In this document: in pieces, positions 370 to 14,903 of the stretch
Numbering within the stretch: the first letter of the stretch is position 1
Layout of the letters: every line of letters begins with the position of its first letter
NCBI GenBank assembly: GCA_943330915.2
Contig: CALQJO020000030.1
Location: 1-37,327 of the forward strand
Direction: 5' to 3'
Origin: Rhodoferax sp. OV413
GTDB taxonomy: Bacteria; Pseudomonadota; Gammaproteobacteria; Pseudomonadales; Pseudohongiellaceae
Length of the DNA stretch: 37,327 bases
Program-made: the position numbers and the translations under genes
Notes under the pieces: model-generated
Database searches by the model: none
The model's input: the letters and a program-made list of their open reading frames with translations, nothing else
Told to the model about the DNA's origin: nothing

Positions 370-1463
370 TCCGCAACGAGCACCGCATCAGCAGCCCGTT
401 CTTAAAACCCGCCAGCACGGTGACAGGCGTGATGGCGACAGTCTTGATGGCACTTATTCCGGCTGCGATGTGTTACACATGGTTCTTCGGGATTGGTTTT
501 CTGATCAATCTGGCAATTACCTCTGTTTTGGGCCTGCTAATTGAAGCCTTGGTAATGCGCGCTAGAGGCCGGCCGGTGTTTTTTTATATTGGTGATCTGA
601 GCATGCTGGTCACTGCGGTGTTGCTGAGTTTTGCCTTGCCGCCAGGCTCACCCTGGTGGCTTGCAGCGAGTGGCATTTTTATCGCGAGCGTTTTTGGGAA
701 ACATGTGTTTGGCGGTTTAGGTCACAATGTTTTTAATCCCGCCGCATTGGCATATGTGAGTTTGTTGGTGATGTTTCCTCTGCATATGACGGGTTGGTAT
801 TTGCCAGGCTCGGGCAGTTATGCTGAGGCGCCTATTGATCCGCTGAGCGCTTTTGGAATCTATACCAGCCTGCAACTGAGTTTTCCTTTTCTACGCGAGA
901 TGGCACTGACCCCGTTTGCGGTAGTACCTGATGGATTTGCAACCGCGACACCCCTGATCGAATACAAGTTCGCCGCACCAGCACGCATCCTGATGGCTCA
1001 GACCGAAGGGTTCTCCGTATGGGACCGTCAGGCTCGCACAGGCTGGGAAATGCTGGCCCTGAGTTTTGCTGCAGGAGGCCTGATACTGCTGTGGCAAAAA
1101 GTCATCAGCTGGCACATACCGATGACGGTTATTGCCACGGTGCTCGTGCTGTCGACGTTGTTTTATCAGCCCGGACAAGAAGCCATTGTTGGTTCGCCAT
1201 GGTTACATTTGTTCAGTACATCCACGATCATCGGCGCCTTTTTTATCGCCACGGATCCGGCCAGCTCGCCGTCCAGTGCAGCTGGCAAGCTGATTTATGG
1301 TGTGCTGATCGGCACGGTTATGTACACCATCAGAATATGGGGAAGTTATCTGGACTCGGTAGCTCTTTCCATACTGCTGGTGAATATGTGTAGCCCATTG
1401 ATTGACGAGTGGACTGTTCGTACCCCCCTGGGACGCTCACGCGTCGGGAAAAAATCGCCATGA
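366..1463 (+). CDS. rnfD: RnfD/RsxD, membrane FMN-binding subunit of Rnf complex
   Basis: This is a 365-residue polytopic membrane protein of the NqrB/RnfD family. The GTG start at 366 overlaps the rnfC stop (GTGA). The conserved early segment RARGRPVFFYIGDLS and the loop GGLGHNVFNPAALAY (about 116-130) are family hallmarks. The covalent-flavin site lies in DGFATATPL, with Thr195 at the place where RnfD carries FMN in phosphoester linkage. Only the outer residues of the usual Dxx(S/T)GAT pattern are kept (Asp189, Ala194, Thr195). The C-terminal part has the expected SPSSAAGKLIYG segment and further membrane helices. The gene overlaps the next gene by ATGA, and that gene is rnfE rather than rnfG. 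Confidence 0.93.
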   Translation: MIRNEHRISSPFLKPASTVTGVMATVLMALIPAAMCYTWFFGIGFLINLAITSVLGLLIEALVMRARGRPVFFYIGDLSMLVTAVLLSFALPPGSPWWLAASGIFIASVFGKHVFGGLGHNVFNPAALAYVSLLVMFPLHMTGWYLPGSGSYAEAPIDPLSAFGIYTSLQLSFPFLREMALTPFAVVPDGFATATPLIEYKFAAPARILMAQTEGFSVWDRQARTGWEMLALSFAAGGLILLWQKVISWHIPMTVIATVLVLSTLFYQPGQEAIVGSPWLHLFSTSTIIGAFFIATDPASSPSSAAGKLIYGVLIGTVMYTIRIWGSYLDSVALSILLVNMCSPLIDEWTVRTPLGRSRVGKKSP

Positions 1464-2170
1464 AACCGCTAACGCATTTGTTTAACAGCAGCGGCAGTGT
1501 TTCTTCGCTGGTGGTGTTATCGCTGGCATCGTTGATTGCAGCGAGCAGCAGTAGCGGTCTGGCCTTGTTGATAGGCTTGAGCAGCTGGGTTGTGCTGTTG
1601 ATTTGCACGGCAGTGTTGTGCCTGCTGGCGCCTATGCTGCGAAAAGAGCCTCTGTTATTGGATGCCGGATCAGCCTTTACGCTGAGTATTGTGGCGGCTT
1701 TGCTGGCCACTGTTGTGACAATACTGAGTGTGACTCTGCAGTTGTTGCGCTACGAAGCCACCGTATTTGCGGGGTTATGGTTGCCGTTGATCGCTTCAAA
1801 TGCATTGATTTATATGCACCTGCTTGGCACATGGGAGCAGGCTAATGCAGCAGCCATAAAAGTTGCTCTGTGGCGAGGAGCCTTGTTTTGCTCTGTCCTG
1901 TTGGGGTTGGCGGTGATGCGCGAATTGTTGGGTACCGGCGTGGTCTTGAGTAATCTGCATCTGTTAAATCCGGCATGGTCAGAGTCAGGTTTTGTCATTA
2001 TCACTGACTATCCGCGACTGAAATTGTTTGCCATGTCCAGCGGAGGTCTACTCGTGACTGCAATGATGCTCGCCTTGATTAACTGGATTAAAAGTCAGCA
2101 GGCACCTGTATCTGATCGGCGCACACCCGCAGAGGACAAACGCGTGAGGGTAACCGGGAGAATCCGATGA
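1460..2170 (+). CDS. rnfE: Divergent RnfE/RsxE membrane subunit lacking the cluster cysteines
   Basis: This 236-residue hydrophobic protein has about six membrane helices. ATG 1460 is chosen because it overlaps the rnfD stop as ATGA; the frame is open further upstream but only inside rnfD. RnfE-family landmarks can be followed: LVVLSLASLIAAS (family LxGLCPLLA), GLWLPLIASNALIY (family GIFIPLIVTNC), MRELLGTG (family REIIGNG or RELLGTG), and a final helix like the family's last one. At both sites where RnfE has a cysteine that helps hold the shared RnfA/RnfE [2Fe-2S] cluster, this protein has alanine: Ala23 (GCA 1526-1528) and Ala115 (GCA 1802-1804). The family GRAEAFA segment after the second site is also lost. 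A deviant RnfE is more likely than another family, given position, length and the aligned landmarks. Confidence 0.8.
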   Translation: MKPLTHLFNSSGSVSSLVVLSLASLIAASSSSGLALLIGLSSWVVLLICTAVLCLLAPMLRKEPLLLDAGSAFTLSIVAALLATVVTILSVTLQLLRYEATVFAGLWLPLIASNALIYMHLLGTWEQANAAAIKVALWRGALFCSVLLGLAVMRELLGTGVVLSNLHLLNPAWSESGFVIITDYPRLKLFAMSSGGLLVTAMMLALINWIKSQQAPVSDRRTPAEDKRVRVTGRIR

Positions 2171-3646: not shown

Positions 3647-4537
3647 TTCCAGACTGTTCAACCACTTCAGCCATCGACTGCCCTGCAGCGGATGATAAAC
3701 CCAAGGGATTTTTACATTCAGCCGGCCGGCTACGTCCTCGCAAATCTGCAGGTAAATTTCCGCGTAAGGCTCCTCATCCGGTGAACGCGACAGGAAATCC
3801 TGTTCGGCTTGACCCTGCATTATCTGAAGAGGGTACAAACCACAATGATGCTTTTTCTCGCCAAGACGCAATGCCAACGTGCGTCGCTTCCCGCGCCAGG
3901 TCGGTGCGGCCGGCAGCCATGCCACAAAAGGGTTCTGCCAATAAGCCATCGGCTTAAACAAGTGCTTGGCCCGCTGTTCGTTCAGTGACTCACGGCCGCA
4001 AAATTGCCAGTTACTGGTTCTGAGCCTGCCCACGCTTGCAATAAAGATGTCGGAATACCAGGAGCCTACGCTGCTGCCCGGCCTTATGTTGTAGTAAACC
4101 TGCTCCGGTTCATGATAATCAATGTTATTGCGACGACGCTCGCTGCCTTTCATAAACGCATGGTGCACAAAACCTCGTTGTGCGCTCCCAGTGAACCACT
4201 GTTCCAGCGCGCTGGCCTCAGCGGTGGTGAAAGTGCGTATCAGTTGCATGTCATCCTGCACGGTACAGATCAGATCTTCATCGCTGAGTGTGTCCAGCGC
4301 CAATTGCAGATTCCCGTATAGTCCGCCATGTTTGCTGTGAGACTTGCCGTCGGGCTTGGGTGGTTGTATCACTCTGCAATGACTTTTTGCCTCGGCCAAC
4401 AGGTTGATGGTAGCCGGGTCGGTACTATTGTCATCGATGATTAGGACTGGAAAATCAGGAGCACAGCGTTTGAGGCTGGCAAGGCAATTCGCCAGAAAAT
4501 CGCCACGATTAAAAGAGAAGACTACAAAATGCAGCAT
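3614..4537 (-). CDS. Putative glycosyltransferase, GT2-like
   Basis: This 307-residue protein begins MLHFVVFSFNRGDFLANCL, followed by VLIIDDNSTD (about 31-40), the classic GT-A nucleotide-sugar segment. QDDMQ at 94-98 fits the DxD metal site. The frame is open 26 codons further upstream, but the GT fold begins at this Met, so 4537 is preferred. The C-terminal half (EPEQVYYNIRPGSSVGSWYS and on) matches no domain I can name. The gene lies about 100 bp downstream of argG on the same strand and may be read from the argG promoter. The last 33 bp overlap the end of the opposing glycosyltransferase. Acceptor and product are unknown. Confidence 0.72.
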   Translation of the reverse strand: MLHFVVFSFNRGDFLANCLASLKRCAPDFPVLIIDDNSTDPATINLLAEAKSHCRVIQPPKPDGKSHSKHGGLYGNLQLALDTLSDEDLICTVQDDMQLIRTFTTAEASALEQWFTGSAQRGFVHHAFMKGSERRRNNIDYHEPEQVYYNIRPGSSVGSWYSDIFIASVGRLRTSNWQFCGRESLNEQRAKHLFKPMAYWQNPFVAWLPAAPTWRGKRRTLALRLGEKKHHCGLYPLQIMQGQAEQDFLSRSPDEEPYAEIYLQICEDVAGRLNVKIPWVYHPLQGSRWLKWLNSLELKLRKITAVD

Positions 4538-8056: not shown

Positions 8057-8371
8057 TCAACTGGCGACGGTGTCTACCAAGGTCTGGAGTTCACCTTTTG
8101 AATGCATCTCGGTGACGATGTCGCACCCGCCTACCAGTTCCCCATTAACATAGAGCTGCGGGAATGTTGGCCAATTGGCTATTTTCGGCAAAGTGGCCCG
8201 AATTTCCGGGTTGGCCAGAATATCAACGTAAGCAAAACGTTTGCCGCATGCCATCAGGCACTGTACGGTCTGGGCAGAGAATCCGCATTGCGGTTGATCT
8301 GGAGACCCTTTCATATATAGAAGAATGCTATTGGCACTGATTTGATCGCGGATGGTTTGTTCAATACTCAT
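8057..8371 (-). CDS. grxD: Monothiol glutaredoxin (Grx4 type)
   Basis: This 104-residue CGFS glutaredoxin carries a single active-site cysteine, Cys29, in the motif QCGFS. Proteins of this family bind a glutathione-ligated [2Fe-2S] cluster as dimers and pass it on, together with BolA partners, in iron-sulfur biogenesis. WPTFPQLYVNGELVGGCDI shows the cis-Pro and the GG-x-D glutathione-binding elements. The length is typical. Neighbourhood with rnt is common in gammaproteobacteria. It is transcribed against rnt, and its promoter should lie in 8372-8630, shared with argF. Confidence 0.97.
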   Translation of the reverse strand: MSIEQTIRDQISANSILLYMKGSPDQPQCGFSAQTVQCLMACGKRFAYVDILANPEIRATLPKIANWPTFPQLYVNGELVGGCDIVTEMHSKGELQTLVDTVAS

Positions 8372-8630
8372 GGTTAGGCTGCACCTGCGTGACGTGATCG
8401 GAGAGCCGGCATTCTACATGAATTCAACAGAATCGCCGATAATTGCCGCCGTGATGACTCTTAATATAAGATACCAAACTGATTTGCGAAAACTTGACGA
8501 ATGTCATTGCATCTGAGCTTGGCGTAATCAGCAAGATCATGCCAGATTTAACTGAGTGCTGACCTCAGTATCAGCTTGAAACCCGGCAAAACCTGCCAGG
8601 CAAACGCACCCCCTGGAACCTTGTACCAAC

Positions 8631-9527
8631 ATGGCAACACGACACTTTCTGACCTTGCTGGATCTCAGCCCGGTCGAGTTAAGAGATATTATTCACCGCG
8701 CAATCGCTCTGAAAAACAATACAGCGTTGCAAGAAGAAACTTTAAAAAATAAAACACTTGCGATGATTTTTGAAAAATCTTCAACTCGAACGCGGGTCTC
8801 ATTTGAAGTTGCCATGACGCAGTTGGGTGGATCATCACTGTTCCTTTCTCCTGCCGATACCCAGCTTGGCCGTGGAGAAAGTATTGAGGACAGCGCTAAA
8901 GTCCTGTCGCGTATGGTCGATGTGATCACCATCAGGACTTATCAGCATGCCAAGCTTGAACTATTCGCCAGACACTCTAGTGTTCCAGTGATTAATTCGC
9001 TGACAGATGATTTTCATCCATGTCAGTTGCTGGCGGACATTCAGACGTTTTTTGAGCATCGGGGTGATATTGCAGGTCACAAAGTAGCTTGGGTGGGTGA
9101 CGGTCACAATATGTGCCAGTCCTACATCAATGCCTCAAAACAGTTTGATTTTGAGTTGGTAATTGCCTGTCCTCAGGGCTACGAACCTGATCAATATCTG
9201 CTCGACCGAACCAGTGACAGGGTATCGATTGTTAGAAATCCCGCTGACGCAGTAAAGGGCGCCAGTCTGGTAGCGACTGATGTCTGGGCTTCGATGGGGC
9301 ATGAGGAAGAGCGCAAGTTGCGCCTTGAACGCTTCATGGATTACCAGGTCACCCATGAATTGATGTCATTTGCAAAAAGCGATGCATTGTTTATGCATTG
9401 TTTGCCTGCTCACAGAGGCGAGGAAGTCGCTGCAGATGTCCTCGATGCCCCGGATAGTGTGGTTTGGGACGAAGCTGAAAACCGTTTGCATGCTCAGAAA
9501 GCGTTGCTTGAGTTTTTATGCTCTTGA
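8631..9527 (+). CDS. argF: Ornithine carbamoyltransferase, anabolic
   Basis: This 298-residue enzyme forms citrulline from ornithine and carbamoyl phosphate. [13 protein letters not shown] (about 50-62) binds carbamoyl phosphate, [11 protein letters not shown] is the second substrate motif, and [12 protein letters not shown] near the C-terminus carries the catalytic Cys of the HCLP loop that binds ornithine. The short length fits the biosynthetic form; catabolic forms are usually nearer 335. The upstream region 8372-8630 is 259 bp and shared divergently with grxD; I found no clear ArgR operator there. About 300 bp separate it from nrdA. Confidence 0.97.
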
Positions 9528-9663
9528 CCAAGGTTGCCCGTTTGCCGGCGCAGGAATAGTGCAGGCAAGGTTTGAGAATGCATAGCTCCTCAGCGAGTAA
9601 TCCTGCCTGCCTGTTGAGAATTGGCGACTGTCAGCCACAAGATGTAGTGGTCTTATACAAGAC

Positions 9664-9694
9664 TTAACCACAAGTTATCCACAAGCTATTCACA
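9664..9694 (+). promoter_or_regulatory. Three DnaA-box-like 9-mers in phase
   Basis: TTAACCACA (9664-9672), TTATCCACA (9675-9683) and CTATTCACA (9686-9694) start exactly 11 bp apart on the same strand. The middle one is a perfect consensus box (TTATNCACA); the outer two each differ from it by one base. They lie just upstream of the putative nrdAB promoter. DnaA is known to control nrdAB in E. coli through boxes upstream of the promoter, so a role in coupling dNTP supply to replication is likely. An origin is unlikely from the gene context. Confidence 0.75.
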
Positions 9695-9704
9695 CAAAAA
9701 CCAC

Positions 9705-9733
9705 TTGCAATCGCCCTGTGACCGCACTATCTT
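9705..9733 (+). promoter_or_regulatory. Putative sigma70 promoter of nrdAB
   Basis: TTGCAA (9705-9710) and TATCTT (9728-9733) are separated by exactly 17 bp. Each matches its consensus hexamer at four of six positions. The -10 element lies inside the distal NrdR-like box, and the -35 follows the DnaA boxes by 10 bp. Start of transcription would be near 9740, giving a leader of about 100 bases before nrdA. The assignment rests on spacing and context. Confidence 0.45.
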
Positions 9734-9737
9734 GTGC
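9722..9737 (+). promoter_or_regulatory. Distal NrdR-like box
   Basis: CCGCACTATCTTGTGC matches the known NrdR box pattern (acaCwAtATaTwGtgt) at 11 of 16 positions. It starts exactly 31 bp before the proximal box, the usual three-turn spacing of paired NrdR boxes, and overlaps the putative -10 element. Binding of NrdR here would repress nrdAB. Confidence 0.6.
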
Positions 9738-9752
9738 TTTGTTTCTAAAAAA

Positions 9753-9768
9753 CACCTATATATTGTAT
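9753..9768 (+). promoter_or_regulatory. Proximal NrdR-like box
   Basis: The central ten bases, CTATATATTG (9756-9765), fit the NrdR core exactly. The full 16-mer matches at 12 positions, the misses being in the outer flanks. NrdR is the nucleotide-sensing repressor of ribonucleotide reductase genes and binds paired boxes near the promoter. The nrdA start is 72 bp downstream. Confidence 0.7.
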
Positions 9769-9840
9769 TTCTGGCCTCTGTGCGAGCGGTTCGCCCGCAG
9801 TCAGGCGGCTGGTTATCATAAAAACATCATGGAGAACGCA

Positions 9841-12696
9841 ATGCAAACCAATACTCCCAGCTACGGCAGCATCTCTGTCAGCTCTCGACCGGTGTCGCGG
9901 GTGAGTGAAGAACTGCCAGCGACAGCACCCGGTCTGTTGCGCGTAATCAAGCGAAACGGTGCCGTGGTGACCTATGATGAATCCAAAATAGTGGTAGCGA
10001 TCACGAAGGCATATCTTGCCATTGAAGGTGGCCCTGCTGCCGCATCAGCGCGAGTCCGTGAAACGGTCAGCAAAATGGCTGCGCAAATCAGCACTATTTT
10101 TAAGCGTCGTATGCCTTCAGGTGGATCCATTCACATTGAGGAAATCCAGGATCAAGTTGAACTCGCGATGATGCGTACGGGTGAGCACAAAGTAGCCCGC
10201 GCATACGTATTGTACCGTGCGGAACACGCTCGCCTGAGGGACCAGCAGCGGGCTCGTGAGCAGCCGTCCGAGTCAAGCATACAGGTAACCTATGCTGACG
10301 GCTCCAAAGGCCCACTGGACACCTTGCGGCTGCGTACTGTCATTGATGAGGCCTGCGCGGGACTGGAAGGCGTTTCCAGTGATGCTATTTATCAGGAAAC
10401 TCTTAAAAATCTCTATCCTGGCGTCAAGATGGACGATGTGCGGACCTCGGCGGTAATGACCGCGCGCACGATGGTAGAGCAGGATCCCAACTATTCCTAT
10501 GTCACCGCACGCTTGCTACTGGATACTCTGCGCTCAGAAGCGTTGGGTTTTCTGGGCCTCACAGACAGTGCCACTCAAAGCGAGATGAATTATCGCTATC
10601 CGTCAGTGTTGCGCCCCTACATTGAAAAAGGCGTCGAACTCGGACTGCTCTCCCCTCACCTGCTTGAGTATAACCTTGATGTACTCGGTGATGCCCTGAA
10701 TGCCGAGCGTGACACACAGTTCACCTACCTTGGCTTGCAGACGCTATATGACCGTTATTTTATCCACAGCAATGGCGTACGATTTGAGTTGCCCCAGATA
10801 TTTTTTATGCGTGTGGCGATGGGTCTTGCCAGCAATGAGGCTAACCGTGAGGCACGGGCGATCGAGTTTTACAACCTGATTTCCAGTTTTGACTACATGG
10901 TTTCCACGCCGCAACTCTTTAACTCCGGCACATTACGCCCACAGCTGTCGTCCTGCTTCCTGACAACGGTTCCTGATGATCTGCACGGCATTTACAGTGC
11001 CATCAAAGACAACGCAATGCTGTCTAAATGGGCCGGCGGACTAGGAAATGACTGGACACCGGTGCGAGCTCTGGGGGCCGGCATCAAAGGAACTAACGGC
11101 AAGTCCCAAGGTATTGTGCCATTCCTGAAAGTGGTCAATGACACGGCGGTGGCCGTTAATCAGGGTGGCAAGCGTAAAGGAGCGGTATGCGCCTACCTCG
11201 AAACCTGGCACCTCGATATCGAAGAGTTTCTGGAACTGCGTAAAAATACCGGAGATGACCGTCGGCGCACCCATGATATGAACACCGCAAACTGGATTCC
11301 GGATCTGTTCATGAAGCGTGTGTTTGAAGATGGCGAATGGACATTATTCTCACCGAATAATGTACCGGAATTGCATGATTTACATGGCGATGCGTTTGAG
11401 CGCGCATATGAAGAATATGAGCGTAAAGCTGCCGCAGGCCAGGTAGAGATTTACAAAACCGTGCGTGCCAAAGATCTCTGGCGCAAGATGTTGTCCATGC
11501 TGTTTGAAACCGGGCATCCGTGGATTACCTTCAAGGACGCCTGTAACGTGCGATCGCCGCAGCAACACGTGGGTACTATCCATTCATCCAATCTGTGCAC
11601 AGAGATTACGCTGAATACCAGTCCTGATGAAATTGCGGTCTGTAACCTTGGCTCTGTGAATATGGTCAATCACGTTACTGATCAGGGTCTGGACACAGCC
11701 AAACTGGAACGCACTATCAAAACGGCAGTGCGTATGCTCGACAACGTGATCGACATAAACTATTACTCTGTGCCGCAGGCTGAGACTTCTAACCTGAAAC
11801 ACCGTCCGGTGGGCATGGGTATCATGGGTTTCCAGGATGCCTTGTATGTTCAGCGCATCCCCTACGGCTCCGCAGAAGCCCTCAAGTTTGCGGACGAGTC
11901 GATGGAAGTCATCAGTTACCATGCAATTCAGGCATCAACAGATTTGGCGGAAGAGCGTGGCAAGTACAGCAGTTACAAAGGATCATTGTGGGATCAGGGC
12001 ATTCTGCCAATTGACTCGCTGAAGTTGTTACAGGAAGTGCGTGGGGAAAAATATCTTGATGTAGACATGAGCCAGACATTGAACTGGGAAGCGTTACGTC
12101 AACGAATTGCTGCGGTTGGAATGCGTAATTCCAACGTGCTGGCGATTGCGCCGACAGCGACGATTGCCAATATTTCCGGCGTCTCTCAGTCCATTGAGCC
12201 GACGTACCAGAACCTGTATGTCAAATCCAATCTGTCCGGAGAGTTCACGGTTGTGAACCCGTACCTGGTGCGTGACCTCAAAGCACTCGATCTGTGGGAC
12301 AACGTGATGGTCAACGACCTCAAGTACTACGATGGCAGCTTGCAGCAGATCGACCGTATTCCTCAGCACATTAAAGAGCTGTATGCGACTGCATTTGAAA
12401 TTGAGCCGCGCTGGCTGGTTGATGCAGCCAGTCGACGCCAGAAGTGGATCGATCAGGCGCAGTCCTTGAACCTTTATATCTCAGGTGCTAACGGTAAAAA
12501 ACTTGATGTGACCTATCGGATGGCCTGGCTGCGTGGGCTTAAAACGACCTATTACCTGCGATCTCTGGCGGCGACCAGTACTGAGAAATCGACAGTGTCA
12601 GGTAGCAAACTGAATGCGGTAGCAAGCGCGCCTGTGGCCGCTGATGTACCTAAAGCATGTTCTATAGACGATCCTGATTGTGAAGCCTGTCAATAA
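9841..12696 (+). CDS. nrdA: Ribonucleotide reductase class Ia, large subunit
   Basis: This 951-residue catalytic subunit reduces ribonucleoside diphosphates. ATG 9841 is chosen because GGAG at 9831-9834 is 6 bases upstream; the frame is open earlier but carries no family sequence. An ATP-cone begins at LLRVIKRNGAVVTYDESKI. A second cone-like region follows (from IQVTYADGSKGPLDTLRLRT, about 145-225), as in Pseudomonas NrdA, making it longer than E. coli (761). Active-site segments are NSGTLRPQLSSCFL, SNLCTEITLN and IAVCNLGSVN (thiyl-radical Cys). The radical-transfer tyrosine pair is Tyr904-Tyr905 in LKTTYYLR. The C-terminal CEACQ is the redox-shuttle cysteine pair. nrdB follows after 40 bp. 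Confidence 0.97.
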   Translation: MQTNTPSYGSISVSSRPVSRVSEELPATAPGLLRVIKRNGAVVTYDESKIVVAITKAYLAIEGGPAAASARVRETVSKMAAQISTIFKRRMPSGGSIHIEEIQDQVELAMMRTGEHKVARAYVLYRAEHARLRDQQRAREQPSESSIQVTYADGSKGPLDTLRLRTVIDEACAGLEGVSSDAIYQETLKNLYPGVKMDDVRTSAVMTARTMVEQDPNYSYVTARLLLDTLRSEALGFLGLTDSATQSEMNYRYPSVLRPYIEKGVELGLLSPHLLEYNLDVLGDALNAERDTQFTYLGLQTLYDRYFIHSNGVRFELPQIFFMRVAMGLASNEANREARAIEFYNLISSFDYMVSTPQLFNSGTLRPQLSSCFLTTVPDDLHGIYSAIKDNAMLSKWAGGLGNDWTPVRALGAGIKGTNGKSQGIVPFLKVVNDTAVAVNQGGKRKGAVCAYLETWHLDIEEFLELRKNTGDDRRRTHDMNTANWIPDLFMKRVFEDGEWTLFSPNNVPELHDLHGDAFERAYEEYERKAAAGQVEIYKTVRAKDLWRKMLSMLFETGHPWITFKDACNVRSPQQHVGTIHSSNLCTEITLNTSPDEIAVCNLGSVNMVNHVTDQGLDTAKLERTIKTAVRMLDNVIDINYYSVPQAETSNLKHRPVGMGIMGFQDALYVQRIPYGSAEALKFADESMEVISYHAIQASTDLAEERGKYSSYKGSLWDQGILPIDSLKLLQEVRGEKYLDVDMSQTLNWEALRQRIAAVGMRNSNVLAIAPTATIANISGVSQSIEPTYQNLYVKSNLSGEFTVVNPYLVRDLKALDLWDNVMVNDLKYYDGSLQQIDRIPQHIKELYATAFEIEPRWLVDAASRRQKWIDQAQSLNLYISGANGKKLDVTYRMAWLRGLKTTYYLRSLAATSTEKSTVSGSKLNAVASAPVAADVPKACSIDDPDCEACQ

Positions 12697-14246: not shown

Positions 14247-14903
14247 GTGGCTGAAACACACACAAAACAGACCAAAGATAGCGGACTAAATCCTGTTGAT
14301 AACCTGCCCGGGGCGGTGTTGCTGGCCGCCGGGTTTAGCGTTCGTTTTGGCAGCATAAAGCTAAAAGCTGCCTTGCCTGACGGCAATACCATTCTAAGAA
14401 AAACCTTTAATAGTCTCCTTCAAGCAACTGAAAATATTATAGTCATAGGGCGAAAGGACTTGTTGGAACAAGGAGTCTACGACTTCATTCCAGCGTCTCA
14501 TCGGTCGTTTCTGTTTCTGTGCGAAGATGCCCGGTTTGGTATGGGGCACACGCTGGCGTGTGGGATAAGGCATATTCCGTCAAAGTGGCAAAGCGCAATG
14601 ATTTGTCTGGGTGATATGCCATTTGTAAGGCATGACACTCTTATCCGGCTGCTGTCTGCAGGACGTGCGCAGCAAATAATCATCCCGACATATCAATCTG
14701 CCCGCGGGCATCCTGTCATCTTTGGCCGACATTTTTTTCCTGAGCTGCAGATATGTCAGGGTGATACCGGTGCCAGGCATGTACTGCAGTCGCACCCGGA
14801 TTCCATCATTGAACTTGATACCGATGACCCGGGTATTTTGCAGGATATTGATACTCCGCAGGCCCTCGCTGCGCTCTGCGCACAGGTGACCGATCTGCGC
14901 TGA
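14247..14903 (+). CDS. MocA-like nucleotidyltransferase (molybdopterin cytidylyltransferase family)
   Basis: This 218-residue NTP-transferase begins at GTG 14247, with GGAG at 14238-14241. The N-terminal loop AVLLAAGFSVRFGSIKLKAAL is the nucleotide-binding signature (LAAGxSxRxGxxK), and LGDMPFVRHDTL carries the metal-binding Asp before Met-Pro, as in MocA and related enzymes. RGHPVIFGRHFFPEL and GDTGARHVLQ match the MocA C-terminal half. MocA transfers CMP to molybdopterin to make the MCD cofactor of xanthine dehydrogenase-type enzymes. An XdhC-family gene, the usual partner in loading such enzymes, is at 31031-32005, but no xdhAB or cox genes are in the window. Substrate could also be another sugar or cofactor phosphate. 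Confidence 0.8.
   Translation: MAETHTKQTKDSGLNPVDNLPGAVLLAAGFSVRFGSIKLKAALPDGNTILRKTFNSLLQATENIIVIGRKDLLEQGVYDFIPASHRSFLFLCEDARFGMGHTLACGIRHIPSKWQSAMICLGDMPFVRHDTLIRLLSAGRAQQIIIPTYQSARGHPVIFGRHFFPELQICQGDTGARHVLQSHPDSIIELDTDDPGILQDIDTPQALAALCAQVTDLR

Follow-up and report, generated by a model that had tools for sequence, protein, structure and literature searches.

Loss of all four membrane [2Fe-2S] ligands from the RnfA and RnfE proteins of an rnf operon in Pseudohongiella and a second genus of its family

The stretch of DNA analyzed here (the window) is the whole of contig CALQJO020000030.1, 37,327 nucleotides long (C30 in our numbering), from a draft genome of 2.89 Mb in 127 contigs belonging to the family Pseudohongiellaceae. 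It begins with the last genes of an rnf operon, among them rnfE (positions 1460 to 2170, forward strand, 236 amino acids), whose product lacks both of its ligands to the membrane [2Fe-2S] cluster. The RnfA of the same genome has lost its two ligands as well, and none of the four is left. Judged by sequence, this system is an Rnf derivative by descent and architecture, and it probably moves electrons differently from the textbook complex. Since both the cluster and the rnfABCDGE operon are missing as features, we do not class it as a functioning Rnf ferredoxin:NAD oxidoreductase. The reading that it is a settled, cluster-less form, fixed in part of one gammaproteobacterial family and working as an NADH-RnfC-RnfD half circuit, probably together with a displaced RnfG homologue (hereafter RnfG'), has in our judgement about an even chance of being right. 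No report of RnfA or RnfE without these cysteines, or of Pseudohongiella together with Rnf, was found in the open-licence literature of PubMed Central (PMC), which does not cover preprints.

Alignment of the window RnfE with 29 relatives placed Ala23 (codon 1526 to 1528) and Ala115 (codon 1802 to 1804) on the two ligand-cysteine positions, and the same placement was obtained with the structure chains 8ahx_E, 7zc6_E, and 9eri_E of the PDB. An earlier sequence-only reading of the window had proposed this very loss in an rnfE gene with an intact frame inside the rnf operon, and both points were borne out: the frame runs from an ATG at 1460 to a stop codon ending at 2170, between rnfD and nth, and with alanine at both positions the subunit cannot give its half of the cluster. 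Other cysteines that might have taken over the sites, namely Cys49, Cys54, and the one in the motif ALFCSVL, do not align with them and are all variable, and no cysteine is invariant among the six closest RnfE sequences, which speaks against compensating ligands within the subunit. Likewise, there is no invariant cysteine among the five RnfA sequences of the fetched named records. The rnfA gene of the same genome, to which the sequence-only reading had pointed as a check, encodes Asp26 and Ser117 in place of the two cysteines when aligned with solved structures and relatives. With neither RnfA ligand remaining, a half-ligated cluster, one of three options which that reading had left standing, is ruled out. 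As for the other two, no new invariant cysteine in Pseudohongiella speaks for a different relay, although other gained polar residues leave room for one, and a complex that runs in a different way is the most likely remainder.

The divergence of the protein is also apparent from profile searches. The window RnfE reached 56.8 bits with the NCBIfam model RsxE (cut-off 184) and 37.4 bits with the RnfE model TIGR01948 (cut-off 213.4), both far below the thresholds, while it passed the broader PF02508 (39.3 bits, cut-off 23.8). A search of the draft genome with PF02508 retrieved four members: the window RnfE, the RnfA of contig C110, and the pair NqrD/NqrE of contig C11. A second rnfE was thus not found among the 127 contigs. 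Contig C11 carries a complete nqrABCDEF set with apbE, and since its NqrD and NqrE retain their cysteines, the sister complex is untouched by the ligand loss. Among the six Pseudohongiella genomes with an RnfE (the window clade), whose RnfE sequences are 54-97% identical to that of the window, the first site is alanine in all six, and the second is alanine in five and glycine in one (G001). This recurrence makes a sequencing error or chance unlikely.

To follow the state beyond these genomes, 84,980 species (one genome each) were scanned with two exact peptide patterns derived from the six Ala-type RnfE sequences, which reach near relatives only and may miss records close to the window genome. 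Matches were obtained at five loci, in records named Pseudohongiella or Gammaproteobacteria (LSUCC0112, UBA6173, and metagenome-assembled genomes). Within the genus, RnfE is present in six of 15 genomes, the window genome included, and is of the cluster-less type in each. This RnfE type was matched in 61 of 119 genomes of the family, but eight of the matches were weak (E-values of 1e-4 or worse, with four falling in nqrD as judged by position) and were not taken as RnfE. For reading the sites, 38 further stretches were fetched from family genomes. All four ligand positions could be read in 51 genomes, with the window genome and G021 included: 34 have none of the four cysteines, 13 have all of them, and four have one to three. 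The 34 are made up of the six Pseudohongiella genomes and 28 genomes of a second genus, g4 (the other genera are referred to as g2, g3, g5, g6, and g8), in which the pattern is uniform, with three serines and a hydrophobic residue in all 28. The intermediates belong to genus g8, where one ligand is left in G021, two in G026 and G061, and three in G078. Not counted among the 51 were G062 and G081, in which RnfE is the readable subunit and keeps both cysteines, a fragment (G130), and G003, G007, G011, G013, and G019, in which RnfA is the readable one and has no cysteine at either site (the second site of G013 shows a cysteine in an uncertain alignment). Outside the family, both cysteines were present in all 16 RnfE sequences read, and all four in each of the five genomes read at every site. 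In a tree built from MetG, Nth, and RnfB of 73 genomes, which does not include G061, Pseudohongiella, g5, and g4 form one clade with 98% ultrafast bootstrap. The g8 losses fall at two spots among relatives with all four cysteines; deep branches and g6 are poorly resolved. From the Pseudohongiella/g4 clade and the two g8 placements, we infer at least three ligand losses.

The six subunits have not been released from constraint to the same degree. Among the sites that are invariant in canonical relatives, all six window-clade genomes keep 63 of 69 in RnfB (91%), 84 of 97 in RnfC (87%), and 60 of 75 in RnfD (80%), but 30 of 90 in RnfA (33%), 20 of 69 in RnfE (29%), and 11 of 30 in RnfG' (37%). 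The corresponding counts for g4, as sites kept in at least 95% of 27 genomes (G024 excluded), were 50 of 64 for RnfB, 60 of 95 for RnfC, 56 of 73 for RnfD, 20 of 85 for RnfA, and 14 of 66 for RnfE. The released subunits are those of the leg from RnfB over [2Fe-2S] to RnfG. The iron-sulfur motifs of RnfB and RnfC and the NADH/flavin mononucleotide (FMN) region of RnfC have been retained (motifs read by eye). RnfB reached 225.3 bits with TIGR01944 (cut-off 68.7) and was above the family cut-off in 55 of the 56 genomes searched, the window genome included, even where no other member of the operon was recognized.

Every pair that allowed a ratio of nonsynonymous to synonymous substitution rates (dN/dS) to be calculated, which excludes those with saturated dS, gave a ratio below 1. 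Close pairs of the window clade gave 0.12-0.22 for rnfA, 0.11-0.44 for rnfE, 0.05-0.11 for rnfD, and 0.06-0.18 for RnfG', and g4 pairs gave 0.05-0.37 for rnfA, 0.13-0.42 for rnfE, and 0.07-0.14 for RnfG'; for rnfD, the range across cluster-less pairs was 0.05-0.19. Canonical pairs of the family lie at 0.013-0.07 (rnfA) and 0.07-0.19 (rnfE). The membrane pair RnfA/RnfE is relaxed yet not free of selection. The suggestion of the sequence-only reading that the change is settled rather than a sign of decay agrees with these values, with the occurrence of the state in six species, and with the good conservation of RnfD and RnfB.

The operon itself consists of rnfA, rnfB, rnfC, rnfD, and rnfE, with no rnfG between rnfD and rnfE. 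An RnfG homologue is encoded elsewhere, at positions 14829 to 15494 of contig C11; its best NCBIfam matches are RsxG and RnfG, at 59 bits and below the cut-offs. This RnfG' adjoins sthA near nqr in all six window-clade genomes, with gpsA on the other side in five of them (the contig of G005 ends there), and in g4, where it was read in 20 genomes, it also lies upstream of gpsA. In all 26 sequences read, serine replaces the FMN-bearing threonine and the ETPGLG motif has been lost. The site reads VGAS in 6/6 of the window clade, where the valine at position 4 is shared with some canonical relatives, and VDAS in G114. The gene was found in 26 of the 34 genomes whose RnfA and RnfE are cluster-less, as against none of the 17 clade mates that lack a full RnfE (Fisher p 7e-8, kinship ignored). 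Its nqr neighborhood does not make it a partner of the Na+-translocating NADH:quinone oxidoreductase (Na+-NQR), and we rejected this idea since nine of the 20 g4 genomes with RnfG', which are drafts, have no nqrF over the cut-off. In Pseudohongiella, nqrF is present in 15/15 genomes, yet RnfG' tracks rnfE (6/6 with rnfE, 0/9 without). Weak RnfG matches in G018, G029, G096, G110, G132, and G137, and a second one in G006, were discarded, because they scored at most 14 bits with the RnfG' profile or did not match it. RnfG' was also sought beyond the family, in 293 genomes of the order. Among the matches listed, those of G000 and G001, which are part of the query alignment, were the only ones to exceed 330 bits, and the next reached 120 bits; this is a weak test, since two g4 genomes were listed, neither of them with RnfG', and the 49 genomes without a match are unnamed.

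In RnfD, both the FMN-bearing threonine and the aspartate of its motif are present in 34/34 cluster-less genomes (6/6 of the window clade and 28/28 of g4). Two neighboring positions have changed: the aspartate that follows ATPL in all 17 canonical sequences with a letter there is isoleucine in 6/6 and in 26 of 28 g4 genomes, and the residue three before the threonine is alanine instead of serine or threonine in 6/6 and 24 of 28. The flavin transferase ApbE was present in all 30 genomes searched. An extract of PMC12052999 gives its target motif as D-x-x-[S/T]-G-A-[S/T], in which serine is accepted less well than threonine.

In the known Rnf complex, as outlined in part of PMC12174285, electrons take a U-shaped path over RnfB, the membrane cluster, the FMN of RnfG, the flavins of RnfD, and RnfC to NAD. 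The loss of four ligands means that the leg from RnfB over [2Fe-2S] to RnfG should not be able to work as it does in Rnf and Nqr, so that the path between ferredoxin and NAD would be cut at this leg. A half circuit would be left, in which electrons pass from NADH to RnfC (FMN and two [4Fe-4S] clusters), on to RnfD (flavins, among them the one on the threonine), and probably to RnfG', so that NADH would exchange electrons with quinone or with a partner in the periplasm. RnfA and RnfE would serve as a non-redox membrane scaffold, and RnfB, uncoupled from the half circuit, would have a cytosolic electron-carrier role of its own. We prefer this model because RnfC, RnfD, and a modified RnfG' have been retained. 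Its most explicit version, with electrons reaching quinone or the periplasm through an RnfG' flavinylated on serine, and with RnfA/RnfE either redox-silent or forming an ion path by means of gained acidic residues, is a tentative proposal that we would put somewhat short of an even chance.

Several observations weigh against the half circuit. RnfG' was not found in eight of the 28 cluster-less g4 genomes (G024, G086, G096, G110, G129, G132, G134, and G137), four of which are drafts of 73-90% completeness, and it appears not to be indispensable; the copy of G108 has an in-frame stop. Covalent flavinylation is not certain either, given an RnfG' without ETPGLG and an RnfD motif with alanine for serine or threonine. 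The faster evolution of rnfA and rnfE relative to canonical relatives is a real relaxation. In G024, the NADH part of RnfC is gone and its ferredoxin domain is fused to RnfB, while the FMN-bearing threonine of RnfD is kept, a combination that an NADH half circuit does not explain. Finally, in one g4 genome (G128, locus L187) the cluster-less operon is accompanied by a second rnf cluster that looks canonical, its genes running C-D-G-E-A over the part covered.

The leading alternative is a short circuit within the cytosol, from RnfC to RnfB. Electrons from NADH would pass over RnfC and RnfB to a soluble partner with no crossing of the membrane, and RnfA, RnfD, and RnfE (and RnfG') would be mere anchors of an uncoupled, non-pumping NADH:ferredoxin-type reductase. 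The window clade conserves RnfB and RnfC better than any other subunit, which fits this arrangement, as does the near-constant presence of RnfB, also on its own, and the loss of the RnfD FMN loop in four genomes with a reduced A-B-D form would suit a scaffold role for RnfD. In g4, the best conserved pair is RnfB and RnfD. A pure anchor, however, would have no use for the threonine and aspartate that RnfD keeps in 34/34 genomes, or for a Ser-type site in an RnfG' under selection. SoxR is the known partner of Rsx in E. coli, and the window genome has no SoxR over the cut-off; as an obligate partner SoxR is unsupported, since it passed the cut-off in 12 of 56 genomes, of which three belong to the window clade, some have RnfB alone, and some are canonical. 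On balance, we consider the short circuit unlikely.

Slow decay, in which the family is dismantling Rnf until only RnfB is left, with the cluster-less form as an intermediate of little function, would account for the coexistence of canonical complexes, g8 genomes with one to three ligands, cluster-less forms, A-B-D remnants, and solitary RnfB, and also for the raised rates of rnfA and rnfE, which amount to 0.41 and 0.30 in the g8 pair G021/G026 in the midst of ligand loss. It accords poorly with dN/dS values well below 1 in the cluster-less genomes (rnfA 0.05-0.37, rnfE 0.11-0.44, and rnfD as above), with a state common to two genera joined in one well-supported clade and uniform in 28/28 g4 genomes, and with single open frames for rnfA to rnfE throughout the window clade, and we regard it as improbable. 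A lower probability still is given to a replacement cofactor or ion site, whereby RnfA/RnfE would bind something else at the old site or new acidic residues in the membrane would carry protons or Na+. Position 26 of RnfA is acidic across the window clade (Asp in two of six, Glu in four), His16 of RnfA and His120 of RnfE occur in 6/6, g4 has gained a glutamate at RnfA position 40 (28/28) and a cysteine two residues before the second RnfE site (27/28), and further acidic gains exist, mostly near the ends or in loops as seen by eye; the gained residues nevertheless differ between the two genera, and no cysteine is invariant in the window clade. An artefact, be it a faulty assembly or alignment or a paralogue that accompanies a canonical complex encoded at another place in the genome, might be suspected in a draft of 127 contigs whose operon is split over two of them, and G128 does hold a second cluster of canonical type. 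Against this stand the same state in five other genomes of the genus, including LSUCC0112 on a 940-kb contig, and in 28 g4 genomes, the position of rnfA to rnfE with their neighbors on single contigs in five relatives, and the lack of extra members in the PF02508 search, which together leave an artefact next to no probability.

Other relatives have reduced or rearranged their rnf loci in different ways. Six loci of genera g3 (L086, L093, L098, and L104) and g2 (L085 and L092) have no rnfC, and their rnfB carries the C-terminal ferredoxin domain of RnfC as a fusion (332-425 amino acids); a Pfam search of two of these fusions gave four and three Fer4 stretches, and the RnfA and RnfE beside them keep all four cysteines. 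This is the complementary loss, with the NADH head gone and the membrane relay kept. Elsewhere, rnfB is the only member recognized between the metG/rubredoxin genes and nth (L078, L079, L080, L082, and L084 of Pseudohongiella; L088, L096, L100, and L106 of g5); the RnfB tail resembles the RnfC C-terminus by eye, and the place beside nth is kept. The label of an rnfB-only genome is inexact for G017, G028, and G033, as highly divergent A-like and D-like frames are present in G017 and G028. A reduced A-B-C'-D form occurs at L073, L077, L081, and L083, where RnfC consists of the ferredoxin domain (186-223 amino acids) and RnfD lacks the FMN loop; in at least three of these four loci, a frame of 65-125 amino acids with one membrane helix and an RnfE tail (IRVRVTG or IRARVTG) lies just before nth. 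The insert that separates rnfB from rnfD in G015 (5 kb; its size in G022 is 2.6 kb) was considered as a new NADH module, which is unsupported because its frames look unlike redox subunits by eye. In another family, locus L107 of G042 (8324 to 10234) has rnfB, a 637-amino-acid frame matching the RnfD and RnfG profiles, and then nth, and rnfA, rnfC, and rnfE were not recognized at this locus.

Within the window, all genes of the locus lie on the forward strand. Positions 1 to 369 hold the 3' end of rnfC, which codes for the final part of the last [4Fe-4S] motif and the C-terminal tail, in frame with the part on contig C110. The rnfD gene (366 to 1463, 365 amino acids; TIGR01946 306.5 bits, cut-off 207) has the FMN-attachment motif DGFATATPL, in which alignment with 8ahx_D identifies the codon of the FMN-bearing Thr195 at 948 to 950. 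It is followed by rnfE and by nth, encoding endonuclease III (2167 to 2802), which overlaps the rnfE stop and neighbors rnfE in most loci read. Overlaps of four bases join rnfC to rnfD, rnfD to rnfE, and rnfE to nth. The RnfE tail KRVRVTGxI (2138 to 2167) extends into the beginning of nth, and its nine residues are invariant across the window clade (six genomes). It is frequent in other families and persists where the remainder of RnfE is lost; it may be kept for the sake of the protein or as a translation signal of nth. The rest of rnfC lies on C110 (4548 bases), the end of which shares 149 bases with the start of the window; the opening 60 bases of the window map to base 4400 of the reverse complement of C110. 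This contig carries metG and a rubredoxin gene, which faces away, and then rnfA, rnfB, and rnfC. The rubredoxin gene (L003, 2231 to 2467) between metG and the rnf genes, pointing away, was also seen in 14/14 other Pseudohongiella loci read. In each of five Pseudohongiella relatives, one contig spans metG, the rubredoxin gene, rnfA to rnfE, and nth. Each of rnfA to rnfE forms a single open frame in every window-clade genome, with the rnfC of the window genome joined across the 149-base overlap.

The system resembles the RnfABCDGE/RsxABCDGE complexes of known structure (8ahx/8rb8, 7zc6, and 9eri) in its gene order, with rnfA, B, C, and D before rnfE and nth, in the homology of RnfA to RnfE over most of their length, in the iron-sulfur motifs of RnfB and RnfC, and in the FMN-bearing threonine of RnfD. 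It differs from them in that all four [2Fe-2S] ligands are missing, the operon carries no rnfG, RnfA and RnfE score far below the NCBIfam cut-offs, and RnfG' has serine at the FMN site and no ETPGLG. On the one hand, RnfA and RnfE are homologous to NqrE and NqrD of Na+-NQR (NqrABCDEF), which the same genome encodes with all four cysteines in place. On the other hand, the operon has rnfB and no nqrF, and no Cys-ligated cluster. The four cysteines of NQR hold the cluster, and folding or stability is reported to depend on these cysteines (Fadeeva et al., as quoted in a section of PMC9325719); homologous proteins without the four cysteines exist naturally here. A parallel is offered by NqrA, a relative of RnfC that, as proposed in a passage of PMC4014512, lost its cofactors and was kept as a structural subunit. 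There too a redox subunit of the same superfamily would have turned structural, although the cofactor was lost here by the membrane relay pair RnfA/RnfE and not by the NADH head.

A lineage that has maintained these proteins without the cluster under selection in two genera, together with relatives that keep one to four ligands, forms a series for probing the role of the cluster in folding, electron transfer, and ion coupling. One member of the family, LSUCC0112, bears an isolate-style strain name, and we take it to be in culture. If the reading proposed here is true, these bacteria would provide a natural experiment on the Rnf/Nqr superfamily, in which the chemistry of the cluster is set apart from folding and from ion transport.

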